Below are positions 5,379 through 58,567 of a DNA stretch of 64,000 bases, piece by piece (position 1 is the stretch's first letter; the number at the start of each line of letters is the position of its first letter). The DNA comes from Halosegnis rubeus. Lineage in GTDB: Archaea; Halobacteriota; Halobacteria; Halobacteriales; Haloarculaceae. A model generated the notes under the pieces. That model was not told the DNA's origin, searched no databases, and worked only from the letters and a program-made list of their open reading frames with translations. The position numbers and the translations under genes are program-made. The stretch is taken from NCBI RefSeq assembly GCF_009184545.1, contig NZ_QJOW01000003.1:139481-203480 (forward strand). The letters are read 5' to 3'.

Positions 5379-5464
5379 ACGACACGTACGGCCACCACCA
5401 TCATACCAGTTCGGCCTTAGTGGTCCTTAATCAATTATCAGTGTGAAACCGTGACCATACACAA

Positions 5465-5489
5465 CGTTCATTAACGTTCTCGGTCGTTC
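5465..5489 (+). promoter_or_regulatory. CGTTC motif repeated three times at exact 10-base spacing
   Basis: CGTTC occurs at 5465-5469, 5475-5479 and 5485-5489, just upstream of the start at 5506. A 10-base period puts all three copies on the same face of the helix, as expected for a binding site of an oligomeric or array-forming protein. A TTAA core lies within the array, so a bound protein would cover the promoter. No known factor is assigned. Confidence 0.35.
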
Positions 5490-5505
5490 ATGTGGTATGC
5501 GATGC

Positions 5506-5784
5506 ATGGCCGATGTCGACGCGAACTTGGACGCACACAGCTACCCGGCGACCGCGAGTGAACTCATCGAGGCGTACGGTGAGACGGAACTCGAACTCCA
5601 GAACGGCTCGGAGACCTTCGGCGAGGCGCTGGGTCGACTCGGCGAGACGACCTACGAGAGCGCCGACGACGCGAAGACCGCCGCGATGTCTGCCGTCTCG
5701 GAGGGTGCAATCGGTCGGAAGGGGTACTCGGACCGCGACGCCCCGACCGTCGGCGGCATGGGCCCGTCTCCGGTTAGCTTCTGA
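5506..5784 (+). CDS. Haloarchaeal small protein, DUF5789-like
   Basis: A 92-residue protein. Key text: HSYPATASELIEAYGETELE, GSETFGEALGRLGETTYES and AIGRKGYSDRDAP. I recall this as the DUF5789 family, small haloarchaeal proteins of unknown role. ATGs at 5497 and 5506 are in frame; I chose 5506 because MADVDAN looks like a normal terminus and the distance to the TTAA box fits. A divergent relative lies at 15635-15952 (shared 'YPA..SELI' and 'ETFGEALGRL'-type pattern). It is monocistronic. Confidence 0.75.
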   Translation: MADVDANLDAHSYPATASELIEAYGETELELQNGSETFGEALGRLGETTYESADDAKTAAMSAVSEGAIGRKGYSDRDAPTVGGMGPSPVSF

Positions 5785-5938
5785 GCGTCAGATTCGGCCC
5801 TTTTCGGCATCTTTCTCACTGCCAGCGACATCCACGTTCAAATACGATTGCGACACAGTCTCGACGTGACGCAGGAGTCGCGGCGACGGGCCACGGCGGG
5901 AGTACGGCCCACCTGTCGCCGAGGGGCCGGGCCGTCTG

Positions 5939-53036: not shown

Positions 53037-55994
53037 ATGAGCACAGGAGAAGCACCCAAACAGATTGGGTCACTCAGCTTCGGGCTGATGGACCCCGAGG
53101 AGTACCGCGAGATGTCGGCCACGAAGGTCATCACGGCCGACACCTACGACGACGACGGCTTCCCCATCGACATGGGGCTGATGGACCCGCGACTGGGGGT
53201 CATCGACCCCGGACTCGAGTGTAAGACCTGCGGACAACACTCGGGGTCGTGTAACGGCCACTTCGGCCACATCGAGCTGGCCGCGCCGGTCATCCACGTC
53301 GGCTTCCAGAAGCTCATCCGCCGACTCCTCCGCGGGACGTGTCGCGAGTGTTCGCGACTCCTCCTCACCGAGGACGAGGCCGACGAGTTCCGCGACCGAC
53401 TCGACAAGACGCGGAGTCTCGGCGAGGACCTCGGTGACGTGACGAAGGCCGCGATCCGCCGCGCGCGAAAGGCGTCGAACTGCCCGCACTGTGGCGAAAA
53501 GCAGTACGACATCCAACACGAGAAGCCGACCACCTACTACGAGGTGCAGGACGTGTTGTCTGCGGAGTACTCCGAACGCATCGCCGCCGCGATGGAAGGC
53601 CGTCCGGTCGGCGACGAGGAGGAGGGCGAGGTCGACCGCGAGCCGATGGGACCGACGGACCTCGCAGAGGAGACGGGCATCGACACCTCCCGCATCCAGG
53701 ACATCCTCTCCGGTGAGTTCCGCCCGACGAAGGAGGACCGCGAGGCGCTCGAGAAGGCGCTCGACGTGGACCTCACCGAGGAGGACATGAACAAGCTGAT
53801 GCCCTCGGACATCCGCGACTGGTTCGAGGACATCCCGGATTACGACATCGAGACGCTCGGTATCGACGCCGAGAAGTCGCGTCCGGAGTGGATTATCCTG
53901 ACCGTCCTGCCGGTGCCGCCGGTGACCGCACGGCCGTCGATTACGCTCGACAACGGCCAGCGCTCCGAGGACGACCTCACCCACAAGCTGGTGGACATCA
54001 TCCGCATCAATCAGCGATTCATGGAGAATCGCGAGGCGGGTGCTCCACAGCTCATCATCGAGGACCTCTGGGAGCTACTCCAGTACCACGTCACGACGTT
54101 CATGGACAACGAGATTTCGGGGACGCCGCCGGCACGCCACCGGTCGGGTCGCCCGCTCAAGACCCTCTCCCAGCGGCTCAAGGGGAAGGAGGGCCGCTTC
54201 CGTGGCTCGCTTTCGGGCAAGCGCGTGAACTTCTCGGCCCGTACCGTCATCAGTCCGGACCCGACGCTCTCGCTCAACGAGGTCGGCGTGCCCGACCGAG
54301 TCGCGAGCGAGATGACCCAGACGATGAACGTGAACGCGCGCAATCTACAGGACGCGCGCCGCTACGTCGCCAACGGGCCGGAGACGCACCCCGGTGCGAA
54401 CTACGTGCGCCGTCCGGACGGTCGCCGGCTGAAAGTGACGGAGAAGAACTGCGAGGAGCTGGCCGAGAAGGTCGACCCCGGATGGGAGGTGTCGCGACAC
54501 CTCATCGACGGCGACATCGTCATCTTCAACCGACAGCCGTCGCTCCACCGGATGTCCATCATGGCCCACGAGGTCGTGGTGATGCCGTACAAGACGTTCC
54601 GGCTCAACACCGTCGTCTGTCCGCCGTACAACGCTGACTTCGACGGCGACGAGATGAACATGCACGCCCTCCAGAACGAGGAGGCACGTGCGGAAGCGCG
54701 CGTCCTCATGCGCGTTCAAGAGCAGATTCTCTCTCCGCGTTTCGGTGAGAACATCATCGGCGCGATTCAGGACCACATCTCCGGGATGTATCTGCTCACC
54801 CACGACAACCCGCGGTTCAACGAGACACAGGCGCTCGACCTGTTGCGTGCGACGAGCGTCGACGGGCTACCGGAGCCGGACGGCACCGACGAGGACGGTC
54901 TCGAGTACTGGACCGGTCGCTCCGTCTTCTCGGAGCTGCTGCCCGAGGACCTCAACATGGAGTTCGAGGGGACGCTCGGCGAGCCGGTCGTCATCGAGGA
55001 CGGCCAGCTCGTGGAGGGGACCATCGCCGAGGACGAGGTTGGCGAGTTCGGCGGCGAAATCGTTGACACCATCACGAAGGTGTACGGCAACACCCGCTCG
55101 CGCGTGTTCATCAACGAGGTCGCGACGCTCGCGATGCGGTCGATTATGCACTTTGGCATCTCCGTCAGTATCGACGACGAGTCGGTCGACAGCGAGGCCG
55201 AAGACCGCATCCAGGAGGCGATCGACAACGCGTACGAACGGGTCCAGGAACTCATCGAGACGTACGAGGCGGGCGAACTCGAATCCCTGCCCGGCCGGAC
55301 GACCGACGAGACGCTGGAGATGAAGATCATGCAGACGCTCGGGCGGGCACGCGACTCGGCGGGCGACATCGCCGACGAGCGACTCGACGAGGACAACCCG
55401 GCGGTCGTGATGGCCCGTTCGGGCGCGCGTGCGTCGATGTTGAACCTCACGCAGATGTCGGCCTGCGTCGGCCAGCAGGCAGTGCGTGGCGAACGAATTA
55501 ATCGAGGGTACGAGGACCGCACCCTCAGCCACTACAAGAAGGACGACCTGTCGGCGGACGCCCACGGCTTCGTGGAGTCGTCGTACCGGCAGGGGCTCAA
55601 CCCACAGGAGTTCTTCTTCCACGCGATGGGTGGCCGCGAGGGACTCGTGGACACGGCAGTCCGCACCTCGAAGTCCGGCTATCTCCAGCGCCGGCTCATC
55701 AACGCGCTCTCTGAACTGGAGTCGCAGTACGACGGCACGGTCCGGGACACCTCGGACACGGTCGTCCAGTTCGAGTTCGGCGAGGACGGCACCTCGACGA
55801 CGCAGGTCGCCCACGACGAGGAGAACCCAATCGACGTGGACGACATCGCGGCCCGCGTGATGAACGCGGAGTTCACCGACGAGACGGAACGCGAGTCGTT
55901 CCTCAAAGGCGACACGCTCCAGACGAACCTCTCGGAGCACCAGGACACCTGGCGAACCGGCGCGAGCAGCCCGGAGGTGGAGTCCGATGACTGA
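53037..55994 (+). CDS. rpoA1: RNA polymerase subunit A'
   Basis: A 985-residue subunit, the N-terminal part of the largest polymerase subunit. It has the zinc modules [20 protein letters not shown] and CRECSRLLL ... CPHCGEKQY, the active-site magnesium motif [10 protein letters not shown] with preceding [16 protein letters not shown], and the trigger-loop/bridge region [20 protein letters not shown]. Relative to some archaea there is an acidic insertion near 190-260 ([20 protein letters not shown]). It overlaps rpoA'' by eight bases. Confidence 0.97.
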
Positions 55995-57183
55995 CGCCGA
56001 AGTCAAGACGGTCGTGCAGGAGACCGAACTCCCGAAGCGACTCCGCGAGGAGGTGTACGACGCGGTCGAGGAACACAACGCCAGCGTCGAGGAGGCACAA
56101 GACATCGCGACGGCCGTCGAGTCGCGGTATCTCGCCACTCGACTCGACCCGCTTGACCCCGTCGGCACCGTCTCGGCACAGTCCATCGGTGAGCCGGGGA
56201 CGCAGATGACGATGAACACGTTCCACTACGCGGGCGTCGCAGAGATCGACGTGACCTCCGGGCTGCCACGGCTCATCGAGCTGGTGGATGCCCGGAAGAC
56301 GCCGGACACGCCGGTGATGCACGTGTACCTCGACGAGGAGCACGCTCACGACCGCGAGAAGGCCCACGAGGTCGTCTGGAACATCGAAGCGACCCGGATT
56401 CTCGCGCTCGGTGACGTGTCGACGAACGTCGCGGACATGCTCGTGAGCGTCGACCTCAACGAGGAGACGCTGCGCGAGCGGTGGCCGACCTACGACAGCC
56501 TCGGCGAAATCGTCGACGAGGTCGCGGGCACCATCGAGTCGAACCTCGGCGTCGAGACGACGCGCCCGGAGCCGACGACCATCGAGTTCGGTCCCGACGA
56601 GCCGTCCTACCGCGAACTGCTCCAGCTGGTCGAGGAGCTTCGCGACATCGTGTTCAAGGGTATCGACGACGTGTCACGCGTCGTCATCCGGAAGGAAGAA
56701 GTCGAGTCCGGCGACGAGGAGTTCATCCTCCACACCGAGGGGTCGGCCTTCGGCAAGGCGCTGAAGATCGACGGCGTCGACAGCAGTCGGACGACGTGTA
56801 ACAACATCCACGAGATTCACCGCAACCTCGGTATCGAGGCGGCGCGTGAGGCCATCATCAACGAGACGCGCGACACGCTCGAAGAACAGGGGCTGGACAA
56901 CGTGAACATCCGCCACCTGATGCTCGTTGCCGACATCATGACGAACAACGGCGAAATCGAGTCCATCGGTCGCCACGGCATCTCCGGCAACAAAGACTCC
57001 GTGCTCGCCCGCGCAGCGTTCGAGGTGACGGTGAACCACCTGCTCGATGCGGCGATTCACGGCGAGGTCGACGACCTCGACGGCGTGACGGAGAACGTCA
57101 TCGTCGGCAAGCCAATCAAACTCGGCACCGGTGACGTGGACCTGCGGATGGGCGGTAGCGCACCGACCAGCGCGGACGACTGA
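55987..57183 (+). CDS. rpoA2: RNA polymerase subunit A''
   Basis: A 398-residue subunit, the C-terminal part of the largest subunit. Landmarks: [20 protein letters not shown] (trigger loop end), [20 protein letters not shown] and the C-terminal [20 protein letters not shown] with [20 protein letters not shown]. The end ADDXX region is short. It is followed 62 bases later by the NusA-like gene. Confidence 0.97.
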
Positions 57184-57245: not shown

Positions 57246-58052
57246 GTGATACGGCTCTCCGACGAGGCCCGCCAGCTTATCGGCTTCATCGAGACAGAGT
57301 CCGGGGCGACGGTCCGAGACTGTCTCGTCAACGACGAGCGGGTCGTGTTCGTCGTCGCGCCGGGCGAGATGGCCGATGCCATCGGCCCGCAGGGACAGAC
57401 GGTCGCGCGCATCGAAGACCGCATCAACAAGCGGGTCGAACTCGTGGAGGACGCCGACGACCCCGGAACGTTCGTGGCGAACGCGCTCCGGCCCGCGGCC
57501 GTCTACGACGCGACCGTCCGCGACCGCGAGGGGGAGACCGTCGCATACCCGGAGGTGAACACCGCCGACTTCGGGGCTGCCATCGGGCGGGGCGGCCAGA
57601 ACATCCAGACTGCGACGGACCTCGCGGACCGGCACTTCGACATCGATGCCATCGAACTCGTCCCCGAACCCGACTCCGTGCTGGAGACCGTCGCCGACGT
57701 GACGGGCGTCGAGCCGGCGGACGCGCTGTTCGATACGCGCGACGAGCGGCTCGTCGTGCTCGCGTCCACCGGCTCGCGAGAGGCGATTCGGGAGGCGCGC
57801 GGACAGTTGCGCGAGGCTCTGGGCTGGCCAGTCGTCGTCGTCACGTACGCGAGCGACCCGGCGACGCTCATCGAGCACGCGCTCGCGCCCGCCGACGTGG
57901 AGAACGTGACCGTCTCGGCGCTCGGGACGGCCTACGTCGAGGTGAGCGAGGACGACCGCGGGCTGGCTATCGGGTCGTCCGGCAAACGGATTCGCTTGGC
58001 GCGACTACTCGCGTCGGAGTACGCGGGACTCGACGACGTGGCTCTCACCTAA
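57246..58052 (+). CDS. nusA: NusA-like transcription factor, duplicated two-KH unit
   Basis: Archaeal NusA-like proteins usually have about 140 residues and two KH domains. This one has 268, from GTG at 57246. Residues 1-138 are the normal unit, with KH loops GPQG (47-50) and GRGG (114-117). Residues about 140-268 repeat it: [13 protein letters not shown] aligns with [27 protein letters not shown] with [14 protein letters not shown], and AIGRGGQNI with AIGSSGKRI (GSSG, 243-246). In the second unit the first KH loop is lost ([10 protein letters not shown]). The family binds RNA near the polymerase and its position between rpoA'' and rpsL is conserved. The extra unit may be a pseudo-domain or may add RNA contacts. 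Confidence 0.88.
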
Positions 58053-58138: not shown

Positions 58139-58567
58139 ATGGCGAACGGCAAGTACGCCGCGCGCAAGCTCAAGAAGGACCGTCAGCAGCGACGATGGTC
58201 CGACTCTGATTATGCGCGACGTGCCCGTGGGCTCGGACAGAAGTCCGACCCCCTCGAGGGTGCGCCGCAGGGGCGCGGCATCGTACTGGAGAAGGTCGGT
58301 ATCGAAGCGAAACAGCCCAACTCGGCAATCCGGAAGTGCGTCCGAGTCCAGCTCATCAAGAACGGCAAGCAGGTCACCGCGTTCTGTCCCGGTGACGGTG
58401 CGATTTCGTTCATCGACGAGCACGACGAGGTCACCATCGCCGGTATCGGTGGGGCGAAAGGTCGTGCGATGGGCGACCTCTCGGGTGTCAACTACAAGGT
58501 CGAGAAGGTGAACGGCGTCGCGATGCTCGAACTCGTGCGCGGGAACCAGGAGAAGCCAGTCCGATGA
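58139..58567 (+). CDS. rpsL: Small ribosomal subunit protein uS12
   Basis: A 142-residue decoding-centre protein. Landmarks: [40 protein letters not shown] with [13 protein letters not shown], and [23 protein letters not shown] at 58139 chosen because the upstream frame is in the nusA 3' region. It overlaps rpsG by four bases (ATGA). Confidence 0.97.

Follow-up and report, generated by a model that had tools for sequence, protein, structure and literature searches.

A double-length NusA-like gene with a second, diverged two-KH unit in Halosegnis rubeus and its relatives

Archaeal NusA and the double-length gene

The GxxG loop of a KH domain has a role in RNA binding. Passages of a study of aCPSF1 (PMC3095777) agree with this and describe a KH domain of that protein, KHa, that has no GxxG and was predicted not to bind RNA, yet is conserved. 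In passages of two reviews (PMC7289017, PMC8116511), archaeal NusA was described as made of KH domains only, two in number, and was seen as the KH portion of a split NusA, located on the RNA past the Rpo4/7 stalk; one of the two called its function unclear. According to passages of PMC8116511, aNusA binds RNA (citing Shibata, 2007), and the structure 2cxc is that of the archaeal NusA from Aeropyrum pernix.

The DNA analyzed here is a stretch of 64,000 nucleotides from Halosegnis rubeus (the window). An earlier note on it had pointed to a frame of 268 codons in the slot of the NusA-like gene, between rpoA'' and rpsL. The frame was confirmed, with a GTG start at 57246 and a stop at 58050-58052, and so was the slot, which is the normal archaeal position; 62 bases separated rpoA'' from the double-length nusA and 86 bases separated the latter from rpsL. 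The gene thus lies where an archaeal NusA-like factor is found, but its product does not have the size of about 140 residues and the two KH domains of such a factor; it has 268 residues and two two-KH units. The features of the locus were as follows.

55987..57183, + strand: rpoA'', upstream neighbour, 398 aa, without an intein in the window
57246..58052, + strand: NusA-like gene of double length, an open frame that starts with GTG and has 268 codons before the stop
57246..57662, + strand: copy A, residues 1-139, KH1 and KH2, canonical archaeal NusA unit (residues 1-140 alone scoring 161.7 bits with TIGR01952; structure match to 2cxc)
57384..57395, + strand: KH1 GxxG loop of copy A, GPQG, residues 47-50, with both glycines in 66/66 haloarchaeal short forms
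57585..57596, + strand: KH2 GxxG loop of copy A, GRGG, residues 114-117, with the adjacent basic residues 109 and 124 lost (F109, T124)
57663..58049, + strand: copy B, residues 140-268, KH3 and KH4, diverged NusA unit (TIGR01952, 61.8 bits; KH_5, 29.5 bits; phmmer to 2cxc, E 1.4e-13)
57765..57824, + strand: stretch of KH3 that corresponds to the loop, residues 174-193, four residues shorter than in copy A, without GxxG and with little conservation
57972..57983, + strand: KH4 GxxG loop, GSSG, residues 243-246, present in every full B copy compared
57987..58004, + strand: arginines R248, R250 and R253, following the KH4 loop and unchanged in every B copy compared
58139..58567, + strand: rpsL (30S protein S12), downstream neighbour

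Some related loci carried further frames around these genes. The rpoA'' gene, uninterrupted in the window, was interrupted near residue 72-76 in three of them, by longer stretches in L033 (1083-2540) and L036 (1402-2859) and by a shorter one in L032 (1531-2112); the interruptions look like inteins. Between nusA and rpsL, two frames were found in L033 (4850-5398, then 5398-5838) and one in L032 (4095-4643). Judging by their look, they would encode an MNT-like nucleotidyltransferase followed by a HEPN-like protein, as in a toxin-antitoxin pair.

The earlier note had also proposed that residues of about 140-268 align with residues 1-138 without large gaps. The homology stood: Smith-Waterman alignment of half A with half B scored 119, far above chance, the mean of 2000 shuffles of half B being 32 and their maximum 80. 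The alignment is not gapless, as copy B is shorter than copy A by four residues in the first KH loop and by three in the KH2 hairpin; for its first dozen residues no counterpart in copy A was clear from the sequence, and a helix was placed there in the structure model. Against the archaeal NusA profile TIGR01952 (curated cut-off, 74.35 bits), the whole protein reached 218.6 bits in two matching stretches, and copy A by itself also exceeded the cut-off, which places both in this family. Copy B by itself (E 8.6e-17, model positions 17-140 of 141) was homologous to the family but remained below its membership score. The Pfam family KH_5 (curated cut-off, 27 bits) was matched by half B of the window with a score over this limit, and by 5/5 of the B halves scanned (E up to 1). 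Two of the checks suggested in the earlier note, the self-comparison and the profile search of each half, revealed KH/NusA similarity in residues 140-268, and on these comparisons the stretch is a second, diverged NusA unit homologous to residues 1-139. An unrelated C-terminal domain behind copy A was considered and rejected, as the NusA profile matched copy B over most of its length.

In a full-length structure model made from the window protein and four relatives (mean pLDDT 94, pTM 0.84), four KH-like units lay in a row. Its best solved match was archaeal NusA 2cxc (Z 15.0, rmsd 1.9, 136 residues, model residues 4-139), followed by bacterial NusA; most rows of this comparison covered residues 7-168, so that copy B was barely tested by it. 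When copy B was predicted alone, from five sequences, the mean pLDDT was 54.7, which may be due to scarce data or to a need of copy B for copy A in order to fold. The good full-length model of copy B may lean on copy A.

Copy A is therefore like archaeal NusA (TIGR01952, 2cxc) in its two KH domains, its GxxG loops, the rpoA''-rpsL slot and the strong profile and structure match. Unlike archaeal NusA, the window protein adds a diverged second unit of 129 residues in the same chain, the first KH loop of which is lost. The same KH pair is found as KH1-KH2 in bacterial NusA (RNA complex 2asb/2atw; TIGR01953), where the motif RLAARL aligned with RLARLL behind the KH4 loop; the window protein, however, has four KH units against the two of bacterial NusA, and its 79.3 bits with TIGR01953 lie far under the cut-off of 253.4 bits, outside that family. 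Neither an S1 domain nor an N-terminal RNAP-binding domain was found in it by a Pfam scan (E up to 5), which returned KH families and a weak GGDEF_2 match. KH3 and KH4 of copy B follow the same order as the KH module of aCPSF1/FttA, in which KHa without GxxG is followed by KHb with GxxG, and model residues 142-202 matched 3af5 with a Z of 8.0 and an rmsd of 1.9 over 59, a Z of 8 that maybe reflects a common arrangement. Nevertheless, aCPSF1 has nuclease domains and copy B matches NusA by sequence, the likeness being one of layout only.

Sulfolobus NusA2 (9f9u/9fjl) also provides a second NusA-like unit per cell, but from a separate gene elsewhere, whereas the two units of the window share one chain. 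No second NusA gene was found elsewhere in the genome of the window with TIGR01952, the sole further match being weak (13.7 bits). Separate second NusA-like genes were seen in several other genomes of the phylum, such as G500 (C1:2272211-2272621) and G465 (C1:1769962-1770360).

Distribution, selection and origin of the long form

When the window protein was used as the query, matches were obtained in 89/96 genomes of the family, and the long form was present in eight of the 96: all six genomes of the genus of the window in this set and both of Halorarius (H. litoreus and H. halobius), a genus of the NCBI family Natronomonadaceae. Two of the eight long forms were incomplete, since the gene of G047 (L036) leaves its contig inside copy B and that of G071 (L032) is without 20 residues in copy A. 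No full second unit was found in the other 81 matching genomes of this survey, and seven genomes gave no match (G004, G010, G038, G051, G063, G075 and G087). In a search of 391 genomes of the class with a B-half model, the long form was detected only in G000, G019, G035 and G047, in a sample that left out the long-form genomes G059 and G071 and both Halorarius, and for which the negative rests on a table of match counts. With a model of the whole protein, 119/120 genomes of the phylum were matched, and only that of the window had the long form.

Four genomes with two B-model matches each (G021, G273, G361 and G396) were rejected as further long forms, as TIGR01952 showed one intact single-unit gene in each. 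G361 also contains a second nusA copy with a stop inside it (C3:581292-581654, 126 bits), located some 1.4 kb past the intact one and ahead of rpsL.

In the survey of lengths among relatives that the earlier note had advised, the frame ended at most one residue from the end of copy A in 84/84 of the short-form loci taken, to which some genomes contributed more than one, and the long form was limited to the eight genomes of the family. In the genomes searched, the doubled NusA is, from these matches, confined to Halorarius and one sister genus. By title or abstract start, no paper on a doubled or lost haloarchaeal NusA was found in the open-access literature, a scope outside which most subscription papers lie; the doubled NusA would represent a new form of a known factor, with no description found in the open literature searched.

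In a tree of rpoA'' with 77 rows, the eight long-form rows grouped together (99/79); their sister group consisted of four rows from a short-form genus, and the resulting set of 12 was supported at 97/96. This tree fits a single origin of the long form. A tree of NusA units was made from 89 rows (6 A, 6 B, 66 haloarchaeal short forms and 11 from elsewhere in the phylum). In it, the A rows formed one clade (99/92) and the B rows another (100/100), and the stem of the B clade measured 2.04 changes per column versus 0.28 for A. The B clade was placed inside the haloarchaea, beside family f4 and not beside A (96/92), a placement biased by the choice of 23 of the short-form rows as the best-scoring against B. 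The tree in which A and B were joined was 0.39 log units better (AU p 0.511), so that the two placements were equally likely and the joined one was not rejected.

The NG86 dN/dS, obtained for 15 pairs of the six complete long forms, was 0.11-0.55 in copy B and 0.12-0.44 in copy A, rates that are rough because of the high third-position G+C. Between the window and G035, dN was 0.029 in both copies, with a dS of 0.27 in B and 0.24 in A. Judging from these rates, copy B is under purifying selection. The long stem of B, taken together with its present low dN/dS, indicated that copy B would have changed fast on the stem and would now be constrained nearly like copy A.

The earlier note had read the gene as an in-frame tandem duplication that has diverged. 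A second in-frame two-KH NusA unit that has diverged was indeed found; the tree comparison did not separate duplication within the gene from fusion. It is rather unlikely that copy B was a second haloarchaeal nusA from another family, fused in frame behind the resident gene. Its grouping with family f4 in the 89-row tree would fit such an event, and adjacent nusA copies do occur, as in the separate, broken second nusA of G361; this grouping is set against the slightly better score of the tree joining A and B, the very long stem of B and the rows picked for their likeness to B, and neither an f4 fusion nor a stand-alone B-like gene was found in the surveys of the family (96), the class (391) and the phylum (120). 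An artefact of assembly or frameshift, or readthrough into an unrelated domain after the loss of a stop codon, has next to no likelihood. The same architecture was present in two Halorarius chromosomes and in several separate assemblies, the NusA profile matched copy B, and dN/dS was below 1 in 15/15 pairs; no support for an artefact was found, the only oddities being the 20-residue gap of G071/L032 and the contig run-off of G047/L036. The assembly artefact was rejected, as it was refuted by the recurrence in separate assemblies and by dN/dS.

RNA-binding loops and the role of the second copy

The claim that the second copy keeps one KH loop (GSSG) and has lost the other held, the lost loop being the first and GSSG the second. 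All four loop glycines, two in KH1 and two in KH2, were present in 66/66 short forms. GxxG was found in both KH domains of copy A; in copy B the KH1-type loop was gone, with a deletion, in 6/6 rows, and the KH2-type loop alone was kept (6/6). Mean pairwise identity among the long forms was 76% in the KH4 loop region, the best conserved of the B stretches compared, and 45% in the KH3 loop region. Two residues that flank the KH2 loop, 109 and 124, were basic in 63/66 and 65/66 short forms respectively; copy A had F (6/6) and T or E (6/6) there, and copy B had R at both (6/6), as well as R at 119 and 121 (A numbering) in 6/6. The earlier note had suggested extra RNA contact or a dimer-like shape; the conservation seen here speaks in favour of contact between RNA and KH4, the last of the four KH domains.

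A total of 61 positions were class-conserved in the short forms, of which 40 were kept in both copies, none was lost in both and seven were mixed. Four were lost in A only (82, 92, 109 and 124), all of them in KH2, and ten in B only, nine in KH1 and one in KH2 (Fisher p 0.005 on these 14 single-copy losses, which are few and were found rather than named beforehand). The changes appear to lie mainly in opposite halves of copies A and B. Since copy A gained R82, plus R92 in 4/6 rows, its KH2 may have shifted its charge without losing function. In copy B, R129 was lost in 4/6 rows. Eight positions were lost in L100, a short form on a long branch, so such losses were not unique to copies A and B.

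The reading that we regard as probable, if not strongly so, is that of a tandem duplication (or a join with a second haloarchaeal nusA) kept by selection, with the RNA contact shared between the copies. In the common ancestor, a gene of 139 residues would have undergone an in-frame tandem duplication, or would have been fused with another haloarchaeal nusA, and copy B would then have changed rapidly and settled. Copy A would retain the RNA-binding loop of KH1; copy B, without the first loop, would keep the KH4 loop and the invariant arginine cluster, with its KH3 as a structural spacer. From this pattern of loops and arginines, RNA is probably contacted jointly by KH1/KH2 in copy A and by KH4 in copy B. 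The long form would thereby offer the nascent RNA a longer binding track than the short form, near the stalk of the RNA polymerase.

It is unlikely, though worth serious consideration, that copy B serves structure or protein binding, like a dimer partner built into the chain, and makes no contact with RNA. The RNA loop of KH3 was lost in all rows, H130, present in 66/66 short forms, was replaced by Y in 6/6 B rows, and a KH domain lacking GxxG is known from KHa of aCPSF1, predicted not to bind RNA and with 25% of the pull-down signal of KHb in the passages of PMC3095777. KH4 argues otherwise, as it keeps GxxG and the basic residues at 109 and 124 in 6/6 B rows, has the two additional arginines at 119 and 121, and contains the best conserved B stretch. 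It is very improbable that translation begins inside the gene and yields copy B on its own: methionine was present in 0/7 of the B halves compared, and their candidate GTG/TTG starts shared no single aligned position across all seven, although the window does have GTG codons at residues 145 and 152, close to where copy B begins.

Haloarchaea without NusA and the meaning of the doubled form

According to a passage of one review (PMC7289017), all archaea encode NusA. Whole genomes were searched with TIGR01952 in 16 cases, and 6/16 gave a NusA over the cut-off. None over the cut-off was found in G004, G038, G051, G063 and G075, all of one genus, of which G024 has NusA, nor in G113, G114, G122 and G332, nor in G087, which is 73% complete. 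At seven loci (L112-L116, L118 and L119, from G038, G051, G004, G075, G063, G113 and G122), rpoA'' was followed by rpsL, the stretch was free of N, and no NusA-like frame was found in it; these assemblies are 94-99% complete. In the rpoA'' tree, the nusA-less loci occupied at least two separate places. The pattern looks like a repeated loss of archaeal NusA in haloarchaea.

Returning to the duplicated gene with shared RNA contact, a more specific version of it is possible, though doubtful. The copies would split one job, copy A keeping the KH1 RNA site and copy B having taken over the KH2 site as an arginine-rich KH4, with KH1 and KH4 as the working pair; together with the apparent repeated loss of nusA, NusA would then be an evolvable, sometimes dispensable tuning factor and no fixed core part.

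The long, short and absent NusA of related organisms are natural variants that can be contrasted for transcript 3' ends, elongation and RNA binding. Furthermore, the doubled NusA would reveal which parts can be lost once a second copy exists, namely the KH1 loop of copy B and the basic residues 109 and 124 of copy A, and would in this way point to the residues that are important. The doubled NusA may thus serve as a natural test case for an archaeal factor of unclear role.
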